Source: Isoetes taiwanensis
Lineage: Eukaryota; Streptophyta; Lycopodiopsida; Isoetales; Isoetaceae
Direction of reading: 5' to 3'
Assembly: GCA_021234155.1 (NCBI GenBank)
Contig: JAJEKV010000053.1
Coordinates: 8,509,424-8,573,423 of the forward strand
DNA length: 64,000 nucleotides
Shown here: one piece after another, positions 5,800 to 50,500 of the stretch
Layout: the number at the start of each line of letters is the position of its first letter
Numbering within the stretch: the stretch's first letter is position 1
The notes under the pieces: generated by a model
What the model was told of the DNA's origin: nothing
Databases searched by the model: none
Seen by the model: the letters and a program-made list of their open reading frames with translations, nothing else
Made by a program: the position numbers and the translations under genes

Positions 5800-6768
5800 C
5801 CCCTCCCCAATGATGTAGCCTTGGTTGTGCACAAAAGCAATTCTGTTGCTCTTAACCGGGCCAAGAAAAGGAAAACTCCTGTAGATTGATCAGACAATGC
5901 AATCTCCACCATGTTTGCTTTGATGAAGGAGTACAAGGTGCATAATAATGGAAGTATCAATCTTTCTTCAAGCCAATGGAGAGAGATTATGGTGAAATTG
6001 CAACCCACAGTTCATGGCCTTGAAGATTTGAGACAATTAAGAAACAAGTGGGATAAATTGCAAATAAAATTCAGGGATGAGAAAGAAGCATCCGAAAGAA
6101 CTGGCTCTAAGCCATCTAGTTGGCCATGGTTTGAAGCTATGGAAGACCTTAAACATGGAGTGACAAATGAAAGGGACATTCCAGGTGCAAGGGATGATGG
6201 GGAATTTGGGGCCGAGGCATTTGAGGATGCTGGTATGTTCCCAAACACATTCATCTCTGATGCCTTCTATGAGACAATTGTAACAAATGCATCTTTTGTG
6301 GAAGAAGAATTCATAAACATTGCAGATGATAACCCTGTCAGCCCTGTTGCAAATGAAGGAAATGGTAGCAAAGATAATTCAAGTGCTCAGGAGAAAAATT
6401 TCAGCAAAGATACTCCAAGTACTTTCAATCCTTCTGACACGAGTCCTCAGTCTGCTGCTTGCAATCAGGCTGGGATCAGTGGTAAGCCAATAACAAAGAG
6501 ATCTCGGGTTCACATTGATGAAGAAATTGCAGCTGGGATATCCAACATGGCAAATAGCTTTGGAGAGAATGAAAAAAGGAAGCTTAATTTCATGAAGGAA
6601 GAATCTGTTAAAAAATATGAATTGATCAGGGAGTTGGAGTCCATGAGATCTGCTAATACTTTGAAGGTTGCCCAATCAATGGCTACAATGACAAAAAGCA
6701 TATGTCAAATGACAAAGGATACTCTATTGGAGATTGCTAAACTTGCTGCATCGAAGCAGACAAATTAA
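5800..6768 (+). pseudogene. Harbinger Myb/SANT-like (trihelix) DNA-binding protein
   Basis: The open segment 5911-6768 gives 285 residues with a Myb_DNA-bind_4-type domain at its start: ISTMFALMKEYKVHN, SSSQWREIMVKLQP, DLRQLRNKWDKLQIKFRDEK and SSWPWFEAMEDL. A long acidic/Ser-rich linker follows, then a C-terminal helical segment (NEKRKLNFMKEESVKKYELI). The reading frame is open upstream of 5911 apart from one TGA at 5887-5889: the context KRKTPVD-stop-SDNAIS fits the first conserved Trp of the domain (W-S-D-x-A). One point mutation therefore separates it from an intact N-terminus. The true start lies further 5' and was not determined. Confidence 0.8.
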
Positions 6769-8557: not shown

Positions 8558-9853
8558 TCAAGTCTCATCCTTCTTCAATTTCTTGTTCATGTCTTCAGTT
8601 TCATAATAGTTTATATCTGGCAATTCTGCTTCTAAGGGCAACATTTCCAATTCCAAGTCCTTCATAATGCAGAAATTCCACAAAATACATGCTGCATGAA
8701 TAATCTTAGCTGCCCTGCCAACATGAATAGGCAAAGCCTTGAGGATCCTGAACTTCTGTTTGACTATGCCAAATCCATTCTCTACACAAACTCTGCCCTT
8801 GCAAATCCTCTTGTTGAACCTGCCAGAAGCCCCTGTGCCATCTGGATATACCTTAATAAAAAACCTTCTGCTTGGATATGTTGAATTCCTTAAAAGCATT
8901 GGTGGAATATTAACTGTCACATCTGCATCCAGTATTTCTCCTCTCCTGTTAATCTTTTTTCCTGTCATTTGGACAGTAGGTTCCTGCAAAATCTGCTTTG
9001 ATGCTAGTCTCTTATACAATAGACTCTTCTTGAACTGATTGGAATCATGCACAGAACCTGTTCTACTAACACACACATTGATAAAAATTCTAAAGTGTGT
9101 CACTACACCTTGCATGAGGCAGGAATGCCTCTTGTGTCTGCTGTAGTAATCATCCCCTTTGTCTTTCCTCCAAGGGTTTCTGTACAAGAAAATGTGAGAA
9201 CCATCAACAACAGTAAAAATACTAGACAAACCTGTGGCATCTTCAAATTCCTTCATGATATCAAGGAGTCTTTGACCTAAGGGTAAGGCAATGAATTTTT
9301 TGTAAAGCATGGTCTAAGTCATTTTCTTTGTATATTTTTGGACTGTGGCTTTTCCAACATAAAACCTTTGACCAACATGCAATGGCATCTCACCATGAGC
9401 AAGAAAGTAGAGTACCATAGCTACTGCTTTCCTAGGATCTACAGGGGGCCTGACCTTCTGGCCTGGTCTGATCAGGTATGGCACAATAAGGCCAACCAAT
9501 TTTTCAAATGACCCTCTCTTCATTCTGTAAAACTGATGCCACATATCATCTTCGAATGAGGGAAGGCAATTCCAAGCATGATTGTCAATGTTATCCCATT
9601 GAGTGGTCTGTCTCGGACAAACCCAGAATCTTCTCGGCGGTCTTCTTAATCGAGATGTTGCAGCCAAGAGTAAGATCGAAGATGCACATGGAAAACTAGT
9701 GTTGTCTTCTTGAAAATCGTCTTCCTCCACTATTGCCATAGGATCCTCGAGCTCGTTTTCTTGGATGTGATCCAAGCAGAATTTATGCATTGCTAAACCT
9801 AGCAAAATAGCCCTAAGAGGCATTGCAATCATACCTAAAATGACCGGATCCAT
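8558..9853 (-). pseudogene. PIF/Harbinger transposase (DDE_Tnp_4), one in-frame stop
   Basis: Two segments in the same frame (9853-9317 and 9313-8558) are separated only by a TAG at 9316-9314; together they make about 431 residues, a normal Harbinger length. The N-terminal part has a helix-turn-helix-like region (YFLAHGEMPLHVGQRFYVGK). The catalytic part has FTVVDGSHIFLYRNP (first Asp), GSVHDSNQF (second Asp) and VENGFGIVKQKFRIL (Glu). The transposase would cut and paste the element. The stop context KKMT-stop-TMLYKKF fits TGG to TAG. The gene converges on the Myb-like gene. Confidence 0.9.
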
Positions 9854-10095
9854 GCTTGAATGACGCTATCGGTGATGATTTCCTGCCTCAATGGTGTAAG
9901 GAATGGATTTTTTACAGAAATCAGTTGGAAATGGGACGCGGGAAGTCTGTGTGGACGAACTCGAAATATCCCATATCATTCATTTTGAAGATTGAATGAA
10001 GAAAGAATTATCCCATATGGGATGGCCAGCCGGAATCAAATTGGAGGGAAAAAATCCGGCGGGGAGGAAAACTGCCCGAAACGGCCGCTGTTAAG

Positions 10096-12606: not shown

Positions 12607-15349
12607 CATGTCTCATTTTGAAGTTTGTGAGTCTTGACTGAATTGCACAGAAAAAAGTTACCTAGCGTATGAAAGGAACTTTGTACACAAGGTAGTCTAC
12701 AATGTAAATATCAGCGTCAAACAATATACATACGGAGTAAGATTTCTGGCAAATTTTTCTTGGTTTTGGAATAGTCCAGAAACAAAATAGAAACAGCATG
12801 CCTGCCTGAACATCTTTTCTCCTTCAGAACTATTGTTGTGCTTAGTGCTGGAATGCCTTTATGATACAGTTAATTTTGCTGTGCTTCCTGTACAGTTCTA
12901 TCCTTTGGTAATAGATTCACATAATTTTTTTTTATGCTTGTGTTTTATCCCTGTACGGTTTTATCCTTGATGGATTATTAGCTGCAGCAAGCTGAAGTAT
13001 GGTGATGTTGCATCGGTATGTCCACCCATGGCAGGCCTATGTGCAATTACATCTTTGGTATGAGCCGTTGATGCCCAACAATGCAAATGATAACTTACAG
13101 CTTCCAACTAATGGTTATAACACTCTTTGAGTGTAGAAAGAGTAATTCTCATTTAAATATACAAAAATTCCAATGCATATTCCTATTGAAGTTAAATAGG
13201 AGAAACACGACAACAATTTCCAACAATATCGGATTCAACAGAGGATTTTAACAGAATAAAGTTTATTCTATTTCTCATGCCTGCTGTTTCGTGCAGAACA
13301 AGCTGACTGGCTTTTGAAATTTTGCCGTCCGCTCGCAACCATTTGATTAACCTGACCCAATTTTGAATATCAAAAATGCAATCGGTGGATTTTTCATTTC
13401 ATTTTTCTTTTTGAAAGAACGTATGTGCGTACCTTGAGGCTGTACCCTGAGGCCAAAATCGGCCATATCTGAGTTTCTGTGGCATGTCGGCATCAAAAGA
13501 GATGCAGCCACGAAATCCTCTAAAAAGATTTTGCCCAAAATTTTGCTTTTTATCTACGAGCATTATTTGCCATAACGTTTGCAAATTATCTCTTGAGTAT
13601 GATTTTGGTAATGGTTGCGCGAGAAATAGGTGTTAGGGTTTTGAAAAAAATAGTTTAGGCTCTCTTTGTGATGGTTGTCTGTTGCAGAGTCGTGGCATGC
13701 ATTGTCCGAGCATGTCGGGCGGCTGATCCTCCCTCCCATGTGCCTGAAGCATAGGAGCTCATGGATGCAGCAGAGGAAGCCGGATGCAGAGGTCTATTTC
13801 TGAGGTGGGGCGAGGCAGGGCGAGGAAGGGCAAAGAAGGGTGAGAACGGCGAAGGAAGAGCTCTATTTCTGAGGTGGGGCGAGAACGGAGAAGGGCGGCC
13901 AGATGCAGACATGCTTTAACTATCTGTTGTTGTAAACAGCTCCTTTGTGAGGCTTTTTCTGAGGCTTCTATGTGAACTTGGTTTATGAATCCAGGCTTCG
14001 AAGTTTGCAGTTTGAAACCTCTAGAACCCAGGGCAGTTTGCAATGTCAAAGCTTTAGGTGGCTGGGAGGTTCGGAGTCAGAAGAAGACTCCAACTTCTGC
14101 TGAAAATGTAGTTTTGTTCAAGCTATGTCACGTTTTCATTGAATGGCACATCTTCACTCGCATTTCTTCCTATCTGTTCTTCACTCTCGTTTGTTGTTAT
14201 CTGTGCTTTGTGAATGCACAATGGTAGTTTATGCATTTCTTATGTGTATGGATTCAAGTATATCATGTATGCATATACGTATTTAGGCGTATGGGGTGCG
14301 CAAACTTATACGTGGGTCTGATGTGTAAATTTCACGACCCTTCATTTGGCATATTCATGGAATATGCTTGGATCCAATGATTCGAAAAAAACAAATATTT
14401 GACAACAAATGCTAAAGCTTTACAAAAATAGGTTAGGATTAGTACTAAATCCATCAGCAAAAAATGTGGTTCTGGCTTACCATGAAGGGTTCACTTTTCT
14501 ATTACCATGCCATGTCCAGAAATGAGTGTATCATTATTATCCCCATTGGTATTATCAAGAACACGTATATACTAAGATAATATTCTGTAATGCTGCATAG
14601 GTTGTTATTACCTTACATTTTTCCGGGGATGGTTCACCCAATGGCGAGGCAACCTTGATTCCCATAGGATTAGTGCTAAATCCACCAGCTTAAAATGTGG
14701 TTTTGACTTATCATGAGGGGTTCACTTTTTCGTGACCATGCCATGCCCAGAATGCAGTATACGTCAATGTTATCCTCAACAATGCATTTGTTTGTTTGTT
14801 TGTTTGTGTGCGCGCGGCGTGCGTGTGTGTGTGAGGGGAGGGGGAGGCTTTTTTTTTTTATAATCCTAGCAGTAATATGCTGTGTATCCTTCCCATAGAC
14901 CAATTGGTGAGAAAAATCAAATAATTCAAACAATTCAATTCAATTTCAAAGCAGCAACATGAAGCAACTAGAAAACTTATAACATGTGTAGCCATTTAAA
15001 CAGGCTTACACTATTAAATATCCAATGGTTCATTAATTCCAATCACTCAATAAACCGTTTATCAAGAAAATAAAGCAAAAGGCCTAATGAGCATACAACT
15101 CGATGGATAATATCAATTTCAATTGCAACATAGAAAAATGACGTTGTCCACTCTAAACTCTTCAACTCTGGAATTGCCTCATGTAGTATATACTGGTAGG
15201 ATATCCACAGCTGTTGTCTTGTCTTGGACGTCCTTCAAAAAAAAATGCTAAACCCAAAAACCAAAACAAGGTACTTGTTTTATGATGAGCAAAATTGTAG
15301 CATGGATTATATGGAAAAGATGAAGAGGTTGTAATATATTGTCCTATAT
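12607..15349. other. Intergenic DNA without a recognised gene
   Basis: No convincing coding region on either strand. Contents are AT-rich sequence, a short GC-rich stretch with repeated CTATTTCTGAGGTGGGGCGA at about 13793 and 13861, a TTTG/TGTG tract near 14790-14835, and the duplication listed separately. The BPS1-like transcript probably ends within the first few hundred bases. Confidence 0.6.
14433..14780. repeat. Diverged tandem duplication (about 235-bp offset)
   Basis: GGATTAGTACTAAATCCATC near 14436 recurs as GGATTAGTGCTAAATCCACC near 14668. Both continue with AAAATGTGGTT, TTATCATGA/TTACCATGA, GGGTTCACTTTT and ACCATGCCATG. It is noncoding and of unknown origin. Confidence 0.75.
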
Positions 15350-15379
15350 AACAAGGTTTAAAATGAAACGCACTTATTT
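15350..15379 (+). repeat. Left terminal inverted repeat of the 9.4-kb transposon
   Basis: Thirty bases starting AACAAGGTTTAAAATGAAAC match the reverse complement of 24695-24724 with one mismatch. The last bases (AAACGCACTT) also pair with AAGTGCGTTT a few bases further in, so the end itself can fold. Confidence 0.9.
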
Positions 15380-15699
15380 AAGAAGTGCGTTTGAAAGATT
15401 CCTTTATAAAAATTGAAAACTTGAAAAAAACAGACAAAATAGGGAGCAAAATAGACATTCGGAATACCTCCAAAAAAGCAACATTTTTGAAGCCTTTTCA
15501 TTTTTAAAAGAGGGCAAAAAAAAAAAAAAAAGCTTGTTTTGAGGAGAGAGACATTAATTTTGATAACTCAGTGAGTATTTATTGTTGAAAATAGAAGGAA
15601 ATATAGTTTGTCTTTTTGCAAGCTTAATATAAGTACTAAGAAAATCAAACATAGGAAAGACAAAGAGTGTGAAATCATGGAGCAAGAAAGAGTTGTTCT

Positions 15700-16293
15700 G
15701 ATGCTATGGCAGATAGTGCACCGGTCCCTGAGGGTGAACACGTGGGTGCACAGGATCAATCCGCGGATCAGCGACCGGTGTCCAATGTGTGGTGCCTGTG
15801 TGGAGACCCTGGAGCATTGTATGTTTCTCTGCTCGGACATCCAGCCAGCATGGCAGTGGGTCCAGCGCCGCTTTCACACATCGCTTCAGAGTCAACAGGT
15901 TCTCTTGGGGGTGTATCCTCGGGGGTGGTCCCAGCCTCAGAGTCTGGCCTTCCATTTGTGTAAAGCGTGGTTACTGTGGCTCATTTGGAAGCGTTGGCAC
16001 ATGAAGGTGTTCAGGAATGAGGAGGTACAGCCTCGGGTTCTGATCCCGCAGTTAAGGTACAAATTATATCTCTCTTACCTGGCATCTCCTCGGAAGGAGC
16101 AGTTTAAGGCAGCTATCTGGGAAAGGACCCTTCTCATTGTAGACAGCATTGGCAGATTTATCCCGTGAGTCGTAGGTAGGTATATGTGTTATGTGGGTGC
16201 TCGCCCATGTGTGGGCAGGGGTACCCTAGTACCGCTCTTCTTGTACTTACGCTATATTAATATTATTTAGTTTCATCCTTCAAAAAAAAAAAA
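15700..16293 (+). mobile_element. 5'-truncated LINE insertion with target-site duplication
   Basis: A 594-bp insertion encodes only the C-terminal end of a LINE ORF2: LWQIVHRSLRVNTWVHRINP, then CPMCGACVETLEHCMFLCSD (zf-RVT-like Cys/His pattern), and stops at about 16168. It ends in a poly(A) run. The 13-bp sequence AAAGAGTTGTTCT flanks it exactly (15687-15699 and 16294-16306), the hallmark of target-primed reverse transcription. The insertion is nested in the left part of the 9.4-kb DNA transposon and is therefore younger than it. Confidence 0.92.
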
Positions 16294-16414
16294 AAAGAGT
16301 TGTTCTAATTAAGCATTGTTGAAGAGATAAAGCTTTCAATTTAAAAATCTTCATCAAAATATATTATAATTCTTAGCACAGAGTTTACAATGGAAGTAGT
16401 TTATAATTCTGTCT

Positions 16415-16428
16415 GTATAAATTTATAC
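16415..16428. promoter_or_regulatory. TATAAATTTATA palindrome at the methyltransferase stop codon
   Basis: The methyltransferase frame ends ...CCT CCC GTA TAA, and the GTATAA belongs to the palindrome GTATAAATTTATAC. The stop codon is therefore supplied by the same palindrome found in the introns and promoter. Confidence 0.85.
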
Positions 16429-18006
16429 GGGAGGTGGGGGAGGTGGCTCTTCCCAGTCCACCGGACTCTCGTACCCCTTAGGATCTGTCTCTTGCGAGGC
16501 CACAACAGCAGAGACGCCTCCTTCTGATTCCAATCCTACCGGCACAGGCGGTTTCTCGGGCACAGGCTGCACAGGCTCCAAGTCGACAAACTCCACCTCC
16601 TCATCTTTTCTCCCCGTAAGTGGAGGCTGGATTTCTGTATAAGTGCCTTTAACATCGCCAGCACCGTTCTTTGCTCCCAGTTCCTCGTTTTCATCAGGAA
16701 AGGATTCACAAGAGCTTATCCTAGTCCTGATGAAACTTATTTTATCCGGGTCCATGTCGACGGAGACAACATTGCGCCCCTGCTTAAGGGTGCAAACTGC
16801 TGTGGTGCCTGAGCCAGAAAATGCATCCAAGATCCAGTCTCCCGGGCGAGAAAACCACTGTATTAAATTATTAATTAGCCTCTGTGGCTTCTGATAATGG
16901 GATACCACAGCGCCTTGTCGCTGTGGATCTCTTAATTTTTGTAGAACAGCCGGAAACTGAAAAGCGTTGCAGGGAGGAGTCTTCTCATTCTGCGTATTGA
17001 AATGAACCATGTTTTTTTTGGCATCCACGCTGTAAAAACCTATATGCAAATGCTCAAAACAGCTTACTAAGCGCGGACCACCACCATGTTCCTTGACATT
17101 TGTTTTTAGCCTGCCAAACAATACAACAATTAAAAACTAGTAGAAAGAAAACAATGAAAATAAGTTAGTTCAGTGGTGTGGCGGTATAAATTTATACCAC
17201 GGTTGCCTTGCTGTATAAACTTATACCACGGTGCCGTGCCGTATGAATTTATACGAAGGTTGCCTTGCTGTATAAATTTATACCACGTTTGATCCAGCCG
17301 TATGAATTTAAACCTTGAGGCAACTGTGGTATAAATTTATACCGTGGTGTTACAGTAAATAGAAAAGCAATAAATTTAAAGCTTACCATACGCAGTTTTC
17401 GAAGCCCGCGTTACAGACAGCTCCCAATGGTTTAAGCACCGACATCATCTGCAGGTCGGAATGAAAAATGATGACCCTCCAGTTTGCAGATGTCGTGACT
17501 TTTAGGTCGTCCAAAAAAGCACGGACTTGCACGTGCGTGAAAGCCTCCTCGTCAAAAGCGTTATCCTTAATTTTAAAGCCGTATGGAATATCTGCAATGC
17601 ACAATGTAAAATTTTGCTTGTCCAAAAGAGTTCCCAGCCTCGTGCAATCTCCCTGAACAACCCTGTACAAGCAGTCCTGACCAAATGTTGTAAATCTCTC
17701 ATAGCTAGTGTCAAAACTGCTAGTGCCGACTTCTTTTCCCTGCTCAATTGCCTTCAGTCTTTGCCTCTCCTCCTTGGCCCTACGAACCAGGTTTAAAAAT
17801 CCTGTTGGTAGCCCTTAACCTGTGAGACAAAGGCACGAAAACAAAAAATATTTTCTGCAAAATATACCCAGCCACTGAAGTTAACAGCATGCTCTCTGAT
17901 AATACTATCTGTAGTACAAGTTGGATATAAAAGCTTGCACTCCTCCCAGTCCTCTAGGTTTAGTTGCTTCATTAACTCGGCCTGGCAGGTGACAATGTCT
18001 TTCTGA
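16423..18006 (-). pseudogene. DNA methyltransferase exons (motif IV then motif I)
   Basis: The exon at 18006-17387 encodes YRVVQGDCTRLGTLL, IADIPYGFKIKDNAF and NWRVIIFHSDLQMM. Its join to 17110 is exact: TG at the donor plus G at the acceptor makes Trp (NCV-W-LKTNVKEH). The last exon has VVSHYQKPQRLINNLIQWFS and DAFSGSGTTAV, then VVSVDMDPDK (acidic residue for AdoMet ribose), followed by about 100 disordered acidic/Pro-rich residues. This resembles PF01555-type methylases that modify adenine N6 or cytosine N4. A 1-nt shift in a T run near 17800 breaks the frame between QQDF and NLVRRAKEE. Confidence 0.85.
17183..17354. repeat. Palindrome cluster in methyltransferase intron (about 5-6 sites)
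   Basis: GGTATAAATTTATACC or a close variant occurs at about 17183, 17212 (degenerate), 17250 (GTATGAATTTATAC), 17269, 17308 (degenerate) and 17339. The whole cluster lies in the intron between 17386 and 17111. Confidence 0.9.
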
Positions 18007-18403
18007 CTGCAGAGGGAAAAATGTTGTAAGACAAAATGAGGGAAAAAAGAACACGGCATAGCAAACGAGGCTTATGTCTTAGCTTCCTTGGCCATTTCGT
18101 CTAGAGTGAATTCCTTGGCCACAACTTTTTCTAAGAGTCGCACAAAAATTTCTTTGCTTTTTAAACCCTGTAGCTGCGTCCAGGGTACAATGCTCATGTT
18201 TTTTTGTTTTGCTTTACTACCTTTTTTTGGTTTTATTCCTGCAGAGCTAGCTTGTTCTTTTAGCTCACCATCTTCGAACATACAAAATATTCTTTCTTGA
18301 AGATCCCACACCTGTTAATGGTCGAACTCAAGTAGTTTAGTGTTGAATGGCGTACAAGTGTTTGTTGTGCAGTCTATTGTCTAAATGCACACGGTGGAAA
18401 GGC

Positions 18404-18640
18404 ACGGTATAAATTTATACCGTGCCGAGGTAACGGTATAAATTTATACTGTGCCTGGTCACGGTATACGGTATAAATTTATACCCGTTACCTCGGCACG
18501 GTATAAATTTATACCGTGACCTGGCACGGTATAAATTTATACAGTGCCTAGTCACGGTATAAATTTATACCGCGGCCAGGCATGGTATAAATTTATATCG
18601 TGCCTGGTCATGGTATAAATTTATATCGTGACCAGGCTTC
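18404..18640. repeat. Palindrome cluster in methyltransferase intron (8 sites)
   Basis: Eight copies of GGTATAAATTTATACC-type palindromes, spaced about 27-37 bp, lie within the intron 18734-18312. Several extend into longer symmetric arms, with GGCACGG on one side and CCGTGCC on the other. Confidence 0.92.
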
Positions 18641-18734
18641 CATGGTTGATACAAATTTACAAAGTTCGAGGTTAATACACAAATTAGGCTATGTTAAGCA
18701 TACTAACGAAGACTAAATTAAAGCTTTTACTTAC

Positions 18735-19696
18735 TTGACCATCTCTGAAAGCAAGCTGGAAGTAATTGTCGTACTGCTTCACAGCCATTATGGGCTTCTT
18801 ATCTGAATCATAGCTGAGGCAGCACTCTGTTACACAGGCTTCGCAAAGTTCTTGGAGCTTGTTTTTTTTTTGTTTTTTGAAGTCTTCTCCATGCACTTTT
18901 CTGAACTCTACATATTCTCGGTGCATGAAATGAATTTTGTCGATGAGGCTCATTTTTAATCTGAAGTCATTGTCGAGATTATGGCTCACAGCAATGACCT
19001 TTGCTTCTTTGTCTGTAACCCCCACGTAGATGTGTGCTTCGACACTCTTCCAGACTTCATTCCGACTGTCTTCTTTTGATAATTCTTTTCTTGCTTTGTA
19101 GATGTGTGTGCCTCCAAGTACATAGTAGGTGTAATCTTCGAAATCTGCCTTCTTATAATCTTTTAATTGGTTGCACTGACTTCTGTCTACCATCACAACT
19201 AGTGGCGACACATGTGCATGTGGATTCCTTCTCATTCTTTGCTTGAGAATAGCCACATGTGCCGCGTACAGCTTCCTAACCTGAAGCACTCTGACCCCAT
19301 CTTCATTTTTTGGTGGCCTCTTAATCGTGCTCAGTGTCAATGAAATGGTTTGCTTGAGGAGTTTGGTCTCATTAACCCTCTTCAAAATAGCACTTGACTT
19401 ATCAGACGACCGCACAACAATGTCTGCCCCAGGAGCCTTTTGGAGAGCTTCTGCTGACTCCTCTATGGTCAAGGCCTTTGTGGTTCGTGACCTTTTTTTG
19501 GTGGGAGGTTGTGTCTCTGTTACCAATGCATGTTTCTTGCTCCTCCCTCTTGTCACCACCGGTTCCTCCTCTTCCTCTTCTTGTTCCGAAACCTCGTCCT
19601 TTTCGACATCTTCTTGAGGAAGTGGGTACCACAAAGACCCTTGACCATTTCCTTTTCTTCACAAAGTATTACTGAGGACAAAATGTCCACTATGTC
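18735..19696 (-). pseudogene. ParB-like exon
   Basis: Begins after an acceptor (CATTACAG at about 19697) and ends at a GTAAGT donor (18734-18729). An acidic, then basic, linker (EEEEEEPVVTRGRSKK, KKRSRTTK) leads into a ParB/Srx-like fold of about 110 residues, with GGTHIYKA in the position of the ParB nucleotide-binding G-E/G-x-R box. In ParB proteins this region binds CTP. The downstream exon at 18311 has LLEKVVAKEFTLDEMAKEAK, which could be the helix-turn-helix that reads a palindromic site, but that is inference. Confidence 0.7.
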
Positions 19697-19725
19697 CTGT
19701 AATGCAGGGTAAATTAGAAAGATGA

Positions 19726-19741
19726 CGGTATAAATTTATAC
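19726..19741. repeat. Single palindrome in methyltransferase intron
   Basis: One copy, CGGTATAAATTTATACG, lies in the short intron between 19765 and 19697. Confidence 0.85.
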
Positions 19742-19765
19742 GTGAAGCCACTAAGACATACTTAC

Positions 19766-20129
19766 ATAGCCATTCTTGTAATCTTCCGCCATGTAATCAT
19801 GGACGTCTTTAGGTCTGCACATGCTTATGCGGAGCATTCTACTGTTTAGAATATAGAAGACTTCACCGTTGTCATTATTGCACTTCATAAAAATCTCATC
19901 TTCATTTTCTGTTGCAGGAAGGGTTATCATTTCCCCGGCGGGGTAGTAATCATCTTTGGTAAACTTCCCCCTCCCTGACTAGTTACACAAATAAAGGTAC
20001 GCCTCTGTGGGTTTGCGCTCTCTTGCATCCCTGTGTACGTACCACGTCTGGTCTGTCAGTTCATATGTTTGTGGCTCTGGTGGATTCGCCTTTGATGATT
20101 GGCCTCTCTGTGTGAACTTGATCTTTGTG
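19766..20129 (-). pseudogene. First recognised exon of the ParB-methyltransferase gene
   Basis: Preceded on the minus strand by a strong acceptor (TTTTTGCTCCTTTTCAG) and followed by a GTAAGT donor. Translation includes PPEPQTYELTDQTWYVHRDA and DDYYPAGEMITLPATENEDE, then VFYILNSRMLRISMC. I do not recognise the domain. One TAG near 19979 interrupts the frame (context YLYLCN-stop-SGRGKF). It is an N-terminal segment ahead of the ParB-like exon. Confidence 0.6.
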
Positions 20130-20365
20130 CTGAAAAGGAGCAAAAAAACCAATTTTTACACCAAAAATACAGTTTTTCGCCACTATTTTGGACACTTTAA
20201 CTGTAAGAAAACTGGCTTAAAGGACCTAAAATGCACGCTATTTCAACCCTTTATTTGTGTCTTTTGACCTTTAAAACACAACATTAATACTAAATTTGTA
20301 AGGTTCAGGACATTTTTTTTAGACACTCGACACATTACGAGAATAGAAACCTTAAATGTTGTCTT

Positions 20366-20742
20366 CTGTATAAATTTATACCGAAATTGTTCTGGAACGG
20401 TATAAATTTATACGCCTCGAGCACGAGAGGTATAAATTTATACCGTTGCAGAACACTCGCGGTATAAATTTAAACGCGGTATCGAAGCGGTATAAATTTA
20501 TACCGTTCTGCGAGAACACGCGGTATAAATTTATAAATACTCGGCGAAGCGGTATAAATTTATACCGTTCTAGAACACATTCGGTATGTGTTCTAGAACG
20601 GTATAAATTTATACCGATCTTTCGGAGGCGTATAAATTTATACCGCGAAAGTGTTTCGCGAACGGTATAAATTTATACCTCTGCGTGCTTGAGGCTTATA
20701 AATTTATACCGATTCCGAACAATTTTGGTATAAATTTATCTG
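20366..20742. repeat. Palindrome cluster upstream of the methyltransferase gene (about 12 sites)
   Basis: About a dozen copies of the TATAAATTTATA core, spaced about 30 bp, usually with GG/CC flanks. Several are embedded in longer inverted arms (for example TTCTAGAAC / GTTCTAGAA around 20565-20600, and CGCGAA / TTCGCG near 20650). Two or three copies are degenerate. Confidence 0.92.
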
Positions 20743-20829
20743 AGAAGGACCTTAGACTCAGCAGTTAAAAGAGGCGAAACTAGAATAGTACCGGAATAGA
20801 GACTTATTGGCCATGACCGTATGGATTCG

Positions 20830-20837
20830 CTTTTATA
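20830..20837 (-). promoter_or_regulatory. TATA box candidate, minus-strand (methyltransferase) promoter
   Basis: TATAAAAG reads on the minus strand, about 40 bp from the oppositely directed TATATAAAG. The pair lies between the two divergent genes. The first methyltransferase exon was not identified, so the assignment is positional. Confidence 0.5.
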
Positions 20838-20870
20838 CGTTAGGAGAAGCAAATTGGGGGGGAGAGGGGG

Positions 20871-20879
20871 TATATAAAG
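20871..20879 (+). promoter_or_regulatory. TATA box candidate, transposase promoter
   Basis: GGGGGTATATAAAGCGC is a good TATA-box context. It lies about 330 bp before the first ATG of the transposase gene at 21208; six palindromes fall in the intervening leader. Confidence 0.6.
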
Positions 20880-21017
20880 CGCAGTATGGCCTTCGACTCC
20901 GAAAGCGGCGATATATAGAAAATAGGGTGACCGGCGCCGGGCTTAAGTACCTCTGTTAAGTGCCGTTTCGTATAGCGTTTCTCCATAAAGTTTCCAATAC
21001 AAGTGTCTGTGAGTTTT

Positions 21018-21184
21018 CATATAAATTTATACCGTTTCTGTTCTATGTTGCCCTCCTCTGTATAAATTTATACCATCTCTGTATAAATTTATACAGTCTG
21101 CCGCTTCAAGTTTCCCTTCTCTGTATAAATTTATACCATCTCTGTATAAATTTATACCGCCTTACGTAGGTATACATTTATACG
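21018..21184. repeat. Palindrome cluster in the transposase leader (about 6 sites)
   Basis: TATAAATTTATA cores lie at about 21020, 21061, 21081, 21123 and 21143, with a degenerate copy at about 21170. They are flanked by CTCTG/CATCTCTG repeats and sit just upstream of the transposase ATG. Confidence 0.9.
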
Positions 21185-21207
21185 ATTGTGACGCTTAACT
21201 TTTGAGT

Positions 21208-24200
21208 ATGGCTCGAGAGAAAATAGCGCAGAGCCTCCAACTCCTCGTTCATGAGGGCTTCCTCCCTGCAATGACTTTCACACCTCCTCCTCGACACCGT
21301 GAAGTAGCCACGAAAAATTACGCCTCCGATATTCAAACCCCGGCTACGTTGAGTTTACTCGGCCACGACCACCTCGGCTTACACCACCAGTTCAATTTAC
21401 TCCACCACACCCTGCTCCTGAACGTCGTTTGCCCCCACCAATGCGTTTTACTCCACCACAAGCTACAGAGCTCAGACTACCTCCTACAGTTCATTTTAGT
21501 ACGTCTCCCATAGTCCACCGTAGGCTGCCTCCCCAGAGGTAAATCACGCCAACTCCATCCATTTCGCTAATTGGTACTACAACAAGTGGGAGCGGTCGCC
21601 CCGCAACTCCCCGTGTTCTCACGACACTTCAGGAGCTGGTCAATTACGTCACCAACCTCGATTACTTTTTCCCAGAGAGAGGGAAAGCACCTCCCCCCCA
21701 GGACTTGCCCACACCAAACCTCTCAGCATCTACTAGTACGCCTCATGTTGATCTCTCAGACGAAGAAACACCTCATGTTGATCTCCCAGACGAGGACCTA
21801 CCAAAGCCACAAGACTCTATGTTCGAATTCAAAGCTCCGGCAAGTAAGAATCTTAAGCGAAACTTACGCAAGAAAGCATGTACAACCCAAAGAAGAAAGA
21901 AACTCATGGACGAGGCTCACTTGAGGGCAACACATACAAAGCACTGTTGTTCTCAACGTTGTTTGCTTAAGATTGGACTAAGGGAATTGAGGTTGATTCG
22001 TGATAGTCACAGTTCAATGACTCTGCTAGACCAAAGGGGCTACTTAGCCTTCAATATTAGGCCAGATTATGGTGAGAAGTTTACTTACACAGCTGGTGGC
22101 CACACCGTCTGTCAAACAGCCTTTAAATTGATTCATGCTTTAGGCAGCAGACGACTTGACCGTCTGAAGAAAAGGCTTGACAAGAATCCAGGCATTAATG
22201 ACTACTGCCATTCATGAGGTATATCCAGAATTCATGCCCTTCAATGTGTTTCCTGGATGGAAGGTTCCTTTAAGGAGTCTTGCGAGAAACTCCCTAACAA
22301 TCCTATGTACCACTTGAGTGACAACTTCACGAAACGTGAAGTCTACGATAATTATAAGGACATGTGTGTTGAGGCTGGAGAACGCCATGTCTGCTACTCT
22401 TACTTCACTGTGCTCTGGAAAAAAGAGTTTTCTCGCGTGTCCATTCCTAGAAAGCACCGGATGTCTGTTTGTGCTACATGCTCTGAATTAAAAGCTCAGA
22501 GACAAAATGCAAGGACACTTCACACTAAAAGTAAGCTTCCAAAACGTGTTCTTGCCTAGTTCTACTTAAAAGTAGGTTCTTTCCTAAACATATTTCCATT
22601 TCAGATGAATTGAAAGAGAAACTGAACAAGCACAGAGAACAACAATCTTTGGAAAGGAAAAAATTGACAAAACATAGGAAGAAAGCACTAGAACAACCAC
22701 TCAACTACACATCGGTTGTTATTGATGGAATGGACCAGAAGAAGACCACCCTACCACATTTTGTCAATGTGCCTAAGGATGCTGCTGAAGAAGATTTCAT
22801 ACACCTGCATGTTGTTGGTGCTATGGTATTTAATGGAAAACTATCTTGCAAGGCATTTTTGAACTATCCAAACATTCATGCTGATCCAAATCTCACTATC
22901 ACAATATTGAATAAGCTTCTTTCCAATCTAGAACATATACCACCGGTTCTATATCTTCAGCTAGACAACACGACAAGAGAAAATAAGAATCATGCGTTGT
23001 TTGCTTACTGTGCTATGCTAGTTGAGAAACAAATCTTCAAGAAGGTGAAGATTGGTTTCCTGCCTTGTTGGTCATACACACGATCAAATTGATCAGATGT
23101 TCAGTAGGTTCTCTAAACGTCTTGCTCGAAAAAAAGCTCTCAGCCTCCAGCAATGATTGAGGTTATCCAAGATTCCTACAATCCTCGTCCAGACATCGAG
23201 TTATTAGAAGAAACTTATGATTTCAAAGAATGGATTTTTCGGAGAGATCAACTGGGTCACTGTGCTATTGAGCCCTTGAGAAACATTACATTTCAGCATC
23301 AGATCAAAATTTCACTTGTAGATGGCAAGGCCATCTTACAAGGAAAGAAATATGCCACATCCTTGCAGTGGCAGCCAGCAGCAGGTATTCACTTCATTCG
23401 CACCATCCCCAATACTAGTTCTATGCTCTCTGCAGAGCAAATGCCTCTAAAAAGCTTGAAAGAAATCACAAAGAGTAAAAAGGAGGGAAGAGCATTTGAC
23501 TCAGACAAATCATTGGATTATATTGAGACAAGTATTGGTCGTGCTCTAACCACTTTGGGGAGGCAGATGCTTTATGGTGGCCTCGTTTTTTTTCGCGAAG
23601 CGTGACATGTTGCAAGCTTCATTACAAGGTCGAAGACCAGTTAGATTCAACTGGCCATCTAGGCAAACTCTCCCTGTGCAAGTTGAGAATCAAGAGGAAC
23701 ATGTAGAGATAATGGCTAGCTCAGATGAAGATGACAGAGTCATGTACACTGGCCCCAGACGCACGGCACAACAAGTTGCTTTCGAGTCTCGGTTCGATCT
23801 CGAGAGATTGAGAAAGGAATGCTCATAACCGTCGTCGGTGATAATGATGAATCACGGGAAGCCATTCGGCTAGCTAAAGTCTTGGAGGTAACAAGAGAGG
23901 ATGGAATTCCCACTCAATTAAAAGTGCACTGGATGAGAACAAATGCTGCCAATGCTTTCAGTGGGAGTTATACTTTGGAGATGGTAAAAACAGGAGTGGG
24001 AAAGAGAGCAAAGTCCAAAGCAAACACTGTTGTCATAGATCTAGCTGAAGTAAAGGTTCTTGCATATGACTTTGTTCTGACTGCTGCTAATAAGTTACGT
24101 ATGGTCACTCAAACTTTAATAAGGTCGGCATGTGGATTAGACAAACAACCTAGAAAGGTGGCCAAAAAAGATGATGATGAAGACTCACTTGTAGACAGTG

Positions 24201-24334
24201 AGGAAGAAGATCGTTCGAGTACATCCAGTTTTGAGAGTGAAGCTGAGGATGAAGGCTCAAATGATCAGGGATTAAATGAGTCTGAGGATGAGATGCATCC
24301 TGATATTGCTGCAAAATGTAAGTTTGTCCGATGA
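21208..24334 (+). pseudogene. DDE-like transposase of the 9.4-kb element (frameshifted)
   Basis: N-terminus MAREKIAQSLQLL at 21208, a Pro-rich region, then HCCSQRCLLKIGLRELRLIR and GGHTVCQTAFKLIHALGSRR (22140 region). A clear 74-bp intron (GTAAG at 22531, CAG at 22604) is removed in phase. The core has VVIDGMDQKKTTLPHF (about 22716-22763), LYLQLDNTTRENKNHALF (about 22951-23004) and, one frame over, VGHTHDQIDQMFSRFS (23067-23114), likely catalytic acidic positions. The C-terminus has an SH3/chromo-like segment (REAIRLAKVLEVTRE, QLKVHWMRTN) and a long acidic tail. Frame changes occur near 21320, 22215, 23065, 23147, 23590 (T8 run) and 23812. It resembles uncharacterised DUF7869-type eukaryotic proteins; that name is from memory. 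Confidence 0.75.
22531..22604 (+). other. Intron in the transposase gene
   Basis: The donor AAAA|GTAAG and acceptor TTTCCATTTCAG|ATG remove 74 bp and join LHTK to NELKEKLNKHREQQ without breaking frame. This supports a eukaryotic, spliced transposon gene. Confidence 0.8.
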
Positions 24335-24694
24335 CTCGAACATGTAAAGAACAGAAAGTGCAGGTAATGGGTGTTTGTCAAAATGTCCTATATTTTTGAC
24401 AATTTTGTTCATAATCTTGAATATATCACTTCTTTGTCAATCTATTACCCTTGCTATTTTTTTTATTGCCCTTTTTTTGCTACACTTTATATAAGTAACT
24501 ATTTTTTGTTCTAAATTAGGAGGATGAAAATTGCTATTTAAAATTTTGCTTGGAAGTTATGTTCAATGAACCCCTTAAAAAGGGTACCTAAATTACCTAA
24601 ATTGTCACACCTGTCACAAAAAAACCTTAAAATGGACTTTTTAGGGGAATTTTAGGGAATCTTTCAAAGATTCCTTTTGAATTGCGTTTGAAGC

Positions 24695-24724
24695 AAATAA
24701 GTGCGTTTCATTTTAAACTTTGTT
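24695..24724 (-). repeat. Right terminal inverted repeat of the 9.4-kb transposon
   Basis: Its reverse complement begins AACAAAGTTTAAAATGAAAC and matches the left end at 29 of 30 positions. ATAT follows at 24725-24728. Confidence 0.9.
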
Positions 24725-24728
24725 ATAT

Positions 24729-49852: not shown

Positions 49853-50500
49853 TGTAACACTATAACAACAATCTTCCTTTTTTTTATAAAGCGTGCATAA
49901 GGCAAGTGTTTACGCCCTCTATTGTAGAATTTGAATTGGAGTAATATGATAATATGATGTCTATTGATGATTGTGGGGACAATAAAAGCCTCAAGCTGGC
50001 ACATAGAGCTTGATTATACATTGTGTATAGGTGGTTTTGCATAGTGGATTATTCCCTCCTCTAGGTTTTGTAACACTATAACAACAATCTTCCTTTTTTT
50101 TATAAAGCGTGCATAAGGCAAGTGTTTATGCCCTCTATTGTAGAATTTGAATTGGAGTAATATGATAATATGATGTCTATTGATGATTGTGGGGACAATA
50201 AAAGCCTCAAGCTGACACATAGAGCTTGATTATACATTGTGTATAGGTGGTTTTGCATAGTGGATTATTCCCTCCTCTAGGTTTTGTAACACTATAACAA
50301 CAATCTTCCTTTTTTTTATAAAGCGTGCATAAGGCAAGTGTTTATGCCCTCTATTGTAGAATTTGAATTGGAGTAATATGATAATATGATGTCTATTGAT
50401 GATTGTGGGGACAATAAAAGCCTCAAGCTGCTTGATTATACACTGTGTATAGGTGGTTTTGCGTAGTGGATTATTCCCTCCTCTAGGTTTTGATCCTCAT
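49853..50500. repeat. 216-bp tandem repeat, 3 copies, downstream of the hydroxylase gene
   Basis: TAACACTATAACAACAATCT occurs at 49855, 50071 and 50287, exactly 216 bp apart, with almost identical units. Each unit contains GGGGACAATAAAAGCC, a potential poly(A) signal, so the gene's 3' processing region may be triplicated. Confidence 0.95.

Follow-up and report, generated by a model that had tools for sequence, protein, structure and literature searches.

What is a bacterial-type DNA methylase doing in a plant DNA transposon, and which DNA would it act on? The question is raised by a 64,000-nucleotide stretch of the Isoetes taiwanensis genome (assembly GCA_021234155.1, contig JAJEKV010000053.1, positions 8,509,424 to 8,573,423), hereafter the window, in which positions 15350-24724 are a decayed copy of a two-gene DNA transposon with terminal inverted repeats (TIRs) and a 4-bp target-site duplication. 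One gene encodes a DUF7869 transposase, and the other, on the opposite strand, joins a probably ParB-like region to an N6/N4 methylase. An initial annotation, made from the letters of the window, had described the two genes and proposed that the methylase may mark the element's own DNA. It made no mention of what we rank as the strongest evidence, arrays of a 14-bp palindrome, GTATAAATTTATAC, that lie in the introns and between the genes of the element. A second transposon family in the same genome has arrays of a different palindrome. From the sequence and by analogy with a known plant system, we think it somewhat probable that the methylase binds family-specific palindrome arrays, marks its own element and keeps it active against silencing.

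Arrays of a palindrome inside the transposon

We found 32 sites of GTATAAATTTATAC at no more than one mismatch in the window, compared to 0.02 expected, and all 32 lie between 16415 and 21183, inside the element. The sites are arranged as follows (none has a strand):

16415-16428: palindrome site GTATAAATTTATAC from which the methylase gene takes its final codon and its stop codon
17184-17342: array in a methylase intron, 6 sites at no more than two mismatches
18407-18626: array in a methylase intron, 8 sites at no more than one mismatch, mostly 28-30 bp apart
19728-19741: isolated site within a methylase intron, kept exactly in 22 of 29 copies
20368-20741: intergenic array, 12 sites at no more than two mismatches
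21019-21183: array of 6 sites, several of them 21 or 42 bp apart, immediately 5' of the transposase gene

The exons of the window copy, as drawn, are free of sites except for the stop-codon overlap, and the right 3.5 kb of the element is free of them as well. Six of the seven other loci taken by their left end have an exact site that overlaps the stop codon in the same way. Spacings between sites, in counts that include some stretches entered under two locus numbers, cluster at 21, 28-32 and 41-42 bp. The flanking bases lengthen the preferred site to CGGTATAAATTTATACCG, where TG or CA frequently replaces the outer CG steps; decay of methylated CG would be expected to have this result. Across the genome searched (1,658,258,908 bases in 1,110 contigs), GTATAAATTTATAC has 12,556 exact sites, compared to 17 for the reversed letters. 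The first-listed sites fall on eight contigs (C1, C2, C4, C5, C7, C8, C9 and C13), and among the matches listed an end or coding homology links all eight to this family.

The palindrome sites are more conserved than the spacers between them. In 29 copies, with averages based on the union of two site lists, the minor-allele fraction was 0.133 in palindrome columns, 0.265 in spacers within 20 bp and 0.225 in other noncoding sequence, and random AT-rich 14-bp blocks reached the observed conservation in 0.0002 of 5,000 draws. In 14 loci, after removal of overlap, 152 of 232 sites were exact, 52 carried one mismatch and 28 carried two (3.3% per base). Stretches of 300 bp that surround the arrays show a divergence of roughly 9-20% between the two methylase lineages described below, A and B.

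A second family with a second palindrome

Another divergent methylase/DUF7869 pair is separated by an 801-bp stretch (locus L072) that has no first-type palindrome site within four mismatches. Instead, it contains nine sites of GTATTCCGGAATAC at no more than one mismatch, 41-42 bp apart, and three more at no more than two mismatches, 20 bp apart. The genome holds 3,720 exact GTATTCCGGAATAC sites, compared to 0 for the control. On contig C23 there are such sites at 1 and 3.5 kb from a methylase match, and on contig C46 there is one 2.3 kb upstream of a DUF7869 match. Of 40 distinct L072-like places (the source included), 12 are within 6 kb of one of the best 150 methylase matches, at a distance of 2.2-3.3 kb in 11 cases and 1.0 kb in one; five are within 6 kb of one of the best 150 DUF7869 matches, and 13, counted by eye, are within reach of either gene. 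The intergenic array of the window lies about 3.5 kb from motif I of the catalytic exon.

Both palindromes have the form GTAT-N6-ATAC, with the core AAATTT in the first family and TCCGGA in the second. This common frame suggests, from two families, that specificity for a family may reside in the core. In a search for the generic form GTATN6ATAC there were 5,136 matches in the forward direction, compared to 2,049 for the control.

The element and its copies in the genome

The ends of the window copy and their flanks are as follows:

15346-15349, no strand: left target-site duplication ATAT, 4 bp, with 4-bp duplications of other sequence at eight further end pairs
15350-15379, + strand: left TIR, 30 bp, AACAAGGTTTAAAATGAAACGCACTTATTT, whose inverse at 24695-24724 has 1 mismatch in 30
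24695-24724, - strand: right TIR, 30 bp
24725-24728, no strand: right target-site duplication ATAT, 4 bp

The inverted ends of 30 bp (29 of 30 positions in agreement) and the ATAT on both flanks had been noticed in the initial annotation and are borne out here. ATAT is a target-site duplication rather than part of the transposon end, since the flanks differ at other copies and other insertions bear other 4-bp duplications. At six other paired copies we found CAGC, ACCC, ATTT, TTCC, TAAC and ATAG, all perfect and all different; a short element nested in locus L046 has CTTT, and a 3.4-kb derivative (L063) has TTGA. With the window copy included, perfect 4-bp duplications of varied sequence occur at nine of nine end pairs. 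The family probably moves by cut-and-paste. Judged by the positions of their ends, the six paired copies are 8.5-8.8 kb long, and the window copy is longer because a 5'-truncated long interspersed nuclear element (LINE) is nested inside it at about 15687-16306, with a zf-RVT domain, a poly-A tail and a 13-bp flanking duplication, AAAGAGTTGTTCT.

The family is very numerous in the genome. The 30-bp end, which the initial annotation had singled out for a genome search, gave 975 forward and 981 reverse matches (1,956) at no more than two mismatches, and the reversed-pattern control gave 0 and 0. With the left 300 bp there were 1,193 first-look candidates, and the 40 that were scored each had at least 90% identity. 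The ParB-like exon gave 679 candidates as DNA (40 scored) and 3,475 as protein; the 123 protein candidates scored were 71-100% identical, and 56 of them had no inside stop. Searches by domain gave 9,902 candidates for DUF7869, with matches in none of 14 control genomes, and 1,443 for N6_N4_Mtase, which matched in 11 of the 14, all 11 of them prokaryotes; the best 150 candidates of each were scored. These genome-wide counts rule out a one-off transposon.

On contigs C922, C1078 and C1018 (34.38 Mb), the left end, the ParB-like exon, DUF7869 and the right end follow in order and are flanked by a duplication, so both genes do recur within the same ends, and the initial annotation withstands the refutation that it had itself named. 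Its two-gene TIR transposon with a ParB-like/methylase cargo was right as an observation, and its interpretation as a whole is partly supported. Within 15 kb, 24 of the best 150 methylase matches are paired with one of the best 150 DUF7869 matches, against a chance expectation that we estimate at about 0.4, and 22 of the 24 pairs are divergent. The ParB-like exon and DUF7869 form 17 pairs, using 49 of the 150 scored DUF7869 matches, and all 17 are divergent. Ends are also present in shortened derivatives that have no matching coding sequence. One of these, L063 (C8:315638-319066), has both ends 3.4 kb apart, eight palindromes at no more than one mismatch and no match to the element proteins; two more, L064 and L065, are shortened or reshuffled, with one end each, several palindromes kept and likewise no match to the element proteins.

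The methylase gene

The methylase open reading frame (ORF) pieces lie on the - strand between 16423 and 20128, divergent from the transposase, which confirms the divergent gene, described at first, that joins a probably ParB-like region to a methylase. Reading against the direction of transcription, the pieces are as follows, with the codon-position diversity and the number of copies in brackets:

16423-17129, - strand: last coding exon with motif I (FSGSGTT), N6_N4_Mtase (PF01555) and a proline-rich tail, edges inferred by reading (.048/.038/.098, 21 copies)
17383-17790, - strand: exon with motif IV (DIPYG), drawn from ORFs, whose splice and frame relation to the next upstream exon is unclear in the window copy
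17862-18005, - strand: linker exon, edges approximate (.042/.021/.132, 27 copies)
18072-18314, - strand: linker exon (.057/.033/.134, 28 copies)
18735-19658, - strand: ParB-like exon, by profile comparison (.040/.025/.137, 30 copies)
19763-20128, - strand: 5' exon(s) of the methylase gene (.062/.061/.150, 30 copies)

The window copy has one in-frame stop in exon 1. The methylase is under purifying selection: variation at third codon positions exceeds that at first and second positions about 2- to 6-fold in each of the six exons (21-31 copies). The Pfam check named in the initial annotation, PF01555, matched with an E-value of 1.6e-14 (54.9 bits, compared to a cut-off of 26.7). Since motif IV (DIPYG, 17383-17790) precedes motif I (FSGSGTTAV, 16423-17129), which is the order of beta-class methylases, we assign the enzyme to the beta class. 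DIPYG is kept in 23 of 26 readable copies, and five more copies are unreadable. The NCBIfam models closest to the catalytic exon are CcrM (E 3.1e-11) and PRK11524 (E 9.7e-10), both with scores far below their family cut-offs. We take both to be beta-class adenine methylases, and a motif IV that begins with D goes with adenine N6 methylation. The Isoetes exon shares with these models, its best curated ones, the motif order IV then I; unlike them, its gene consists of ORF pieces that imply introns, is joined to a ParB-like region and lies within a eukaryotic transposon. A Pfam scan of nine element ORFs (exon 1 and the last transposase piece lay outside it) returned no restriction nuclease and no MULE (Mutator-like element) or VANC domain.

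The ParB-like region

We regard the identity of the exon at 18735-19658 as ParB-like as probable rather than proven, from the following profile and sequence comparisons. Of the ParB profile searches proposed in the initial annotation, Pfam gave no ParB match, with no ParB profile over its curated cut-off, and NCBIfam gave no match at all for this exon. PHROG returned weak matches to ParB-like partition proteins (phrog_723, E 0.014-0.09), and a tblastn search against phages returned 50 records at E 0.3 or worse, with 14 of the 20 listed annotated as ParB-like. A profile-profile comparison matched the exon to five phage ParB-like proteins (E 2.7e-4, probability 42%, 51 columns). These proteins, from mycobacterium and gordonia phages and known by their ParB-like annotation alone, share with the exon the core LxGxHxxxAxxEL ... 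N. Searches with the exon gave 205 pattern matches in IMG/VR, none of them confirmed, no match among plasmids and unrelated chains only among solved structures.

The records of the five phages (L066-L070) open with the ParB-like gene, and the next gene encodes a queuine tRNA-ribosyltransferase (two of five), a GTP cyclohydrolase I, an oxidoreductase or a Tet-like J-binding protein. Going by these neighbours, ParB-like proteins may be wider targeters of DNA modification.

The transposase gene

The second gene occupies one line:

21543-24334, + strand: transposase gene in ORF pieces, with the DUF7869 core at about 22775-23359, from the ORF list and Pfam

The DUF7869 profile (PF25273), also named for checking at the outset, matches two of the pieces, one with E 1.6e-27 over the cut-off and one with E 6.7e-4 below it. 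Where a spliced DDE-like transposase gene had been described, a transposase gene on the + strand stands, with DUF7869 as its domain. As for the splicing, the pieces of the window copy are interrupted by stops and frame changes, and some of these breaks may be introns. A literature search for DUF7869 gave no match. Two loci with low protein identities, L060 and L062, were considered as a family with a far diverged transposase and ruled out: their DNA is about 93% identical, and we read the low protein identities as the result of frame shifts. The two overlap by 891 bases. Elsewhere in the genome, DUF7869 lies in long open frames at C1034:11587087 (784 aa), C1018:2451208 (987 aa) and C1081:6389563 (857 aa), perhaps from families more intact than that of the window.

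Methylase lineages and mosaic copies

Copies fall into lineage A (the window, L039, L040 and L041) and lineage B (L042, L044, L045 and L046). Compared with lineage B, the methylase of the window differs by.05-.065/.044-.053/.19-.20 at the three codon positions, and its transposase departs from those of L042, L044 and L045 by about 0.03-0.06 at every one of the three; L046 lacks a transposase piece. In a comparison of six copies that left out the array at 18.34-18.64 kb, fixed differences between A and B amounted to 4.5% over 16.4-17.4 kb and 9-11% over the compared parts of 17.4-19.19 kb, and fell to 1% or less in the compared segments of 19.19-22.5 kb and to 0 of 1,065 columns over 22.5-23.6 kb. 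Since the lineages diverge in the methylase and hardly in the transposase, we read these copies as the probable product of methylase modules exchanged onto a common transposase backbone. Locus L059 represents yet another lineage of the methylase, at 0.31 in third positions, and has the palindrome of the first family.

Other features of the window

At 8558-9865 (- strand) there is a DDE_Tnp_4 transposase in a reading frame with one stop, and a Myb/SANT-like protein is encoded nearby at 5890-6768 (+ strand); together they look like what we take to be a PIF/Harbinger pair. A 216-bp unit is present in three tandem copies at 49853-50492, with 96% matches, and one ORF matches the plant ROH1-like and BPS1 families.

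Discussion

The palindrome arrays strengthen the initial suggestion that the methylase marks the element's own DNA, and from them we infer the binding, the mark and its effect. A dimer of the ParB-like/methylase protein, or of a partner that the element also encodes, likely binds the palindrome of its own family, and the arrays would likely concentrate the protein on the element. Less surely, the bound protein would methylate nearby DNA, probably at adenine N6, since the closest curated models (CcrM and PRK11524) are adenine-specific and motif IV begins with D. Least sure are the last two steps, in which the mark or the bound protein would shield the element's promoters and introns from silencing by the host and keep them active, in the way that VANC works on VANDAL elements, and the family-specific sites would confine the protein's action to its own family.

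VANDAL elements are MULEs, and VANC is not a methylase. According to the available excerpts of two papers, VANC of VANDAL21 binds short motifs in tandem arrays located in introns and upstream regions, and strips silencing from its own family only, with motifs that vary between families (PMC5735166, PMC10398659). The Isoetes element resembles this system in its dense motif arrays in introns and upstream noncoding sequence and in a dedicated element protein besides the transposase. Family-specific motifs are found in both as well, here as the AAATTT and TCCGGA cores of two families. On the other hand, the Isoetes element has perfect palindromes as its sites and a probably ParB-like methylase of bacterial type as its dedicated protein, and anti-silencing is proposed for it by analogy.

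The palindromes could instead be binding sites of the transposase, or of a DNA-binding partner, that serve transposition or repress the transposase, with the methylase an unrelated passenger. We consider this unlikely, even though the transposase gene has an array upstream of it in either family. In the window no site is subterminal: they are absent from the first ~470 bp from the left end (the nested LINE not counted) and from the right 3.5 kb, and nearly half of them fall within methylase introns or across the stop codon of that gene. Purifying selection on six methylase exons would also be unexpected for a passenger.

Alternatively, the protein may bind and methylate the element to repress it, in the manner of autoregulation or copy-number control, rather than to protect it. 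CcrM-like methylases are regulatory in bacteria, there are sites in the intergenic region, the expected place of both promoters, and autoregulation of divergent promoters would use identical sites. We find self-repression improbable in that the high copy number and the sites deep in introns fit anti-silencing somewhat better, by the VANC analogy; the two are otherwise inseparable. Least probable is a role of the arrays as promoter or replication elements that host factors read and that were amplified for a boost of expression: the core, TATAAATTTATA, is AT-rich and TATA-like in both directions and arrays do stand at the divergent promoters, but a shared host factor should select one site, whereas the second family in the same genome has the core TCCGGA at the equivalent place, and the first-family arrays also lie in introns and over the stop codon.

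Several observations weigh against a methylase that recognizes and protects its own family. The derivatives without matching coding sequence (L063, L064 and L065) keep palindromes as well as ends, and the transposase itself could be the binder. The ParB-like assignment is weak, being drawn from sequence comparison. Motif I is readable in only six of 21 copies and kept in five of those, and the transposase of the copies compared shows little or no codon-position bias. Of eight full stretches, six have transposase pieces, and the end of the main copy is found at the left in three and at the right in four. The alignment of repeated sites could account for some of the excess conservation seen in the arrays, and at the isolated site at 19728 the conservation is milder, with four of 131 neighbouring 14-bp windows equally or more conserved. 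Locus L006 has no palindrome site at the stop-codon distance. In the second family, 27 of the 40 L072-like places have no methylase or DUF7869 match within 6 kb, among the best 150 of each (from 1,443 and 9,902 candidates, respectively). The proposed co-evolution of protein and site draws on two palindromes and on gene linkage only, and the generic GTATN6ATAC search yielded no third palindrome, the visible arrays among the matches listed all being of the first type.

The target-site duplication of Sola-1 elements is 4 bp long, as it is at all nine Isoetes end pairs, and the likeness to Sola-1 lies in this length and in the layout of the cargo. As far as the available part of one paper describes them, the 21.5-kb Ectocarpus transposon Sola1-1_Ec32 has a ParB-like and N4/N6 methylase gene on the strand opposite the transposase, ParB-methylase accessory proteins occur in brown, green and red algal transposons, and self-marking has been proposed for them (PMC12477816). 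The cargo and the self-marking idea are therefore not new, and the initial annotation, to which no TIR transposon with a ParB-methylase cargo was known, is outdated on this point by that paper, in its available part, the only one in the literature searched in which we found such a cargo. Both elements are DNA transposons with a ParB-like/methylase protein encoded opposite the transposase strand and a proposed self-modification; they differ in host and size, the Isoetes element being from a land plant and 8.5-8.8 kb long without the nested LINE, compared to 21.5 kb. The available main text of PMC12477816 has 0 matches to "palindrom" and mentions neither arrays nor family-specific palindromes. 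Arrays, a second palindrome and mosaic methylase lineages were likewise not found in the accessible parts of the literature searched, which the source papers on the algal elements lay outside. Amoebozoan Sola2 elements, according to the excerpts seen of PMC3627910, have AT-rich 4-bp target duplications (AWWT), which the Isoetes family, with CAGC, ACCC, TTCC and others, does not share.

The arrays give the guessed role of transposon ParB-methylases a concrete target in the form of thousands of candidate recognition sites, and the two palindromes can be used as each other's control. The Isoetes taiwanensis assembly was made with Nanopore reads, as stated in the available part of its report (PMC8566536), and self-tagging with a bacterial-type mark is thus testable on existing data if the raw signal was kept. 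Tentatively, and with less confidence than in the mechanism itself, we suggest that several families, each with its own sequence-specific methylase and operator arrays, may form a system of orthogonal self-recognition that uses a base mark not used by the host, and in which methylase modules recombine onto a common transposase backbone. If the self-tagging is real, it would add a further sequence-specific anti-silencing system to those of plants, assembled from parts other than those of VANC, and would be a source of DNA methylases whose target sites are long.

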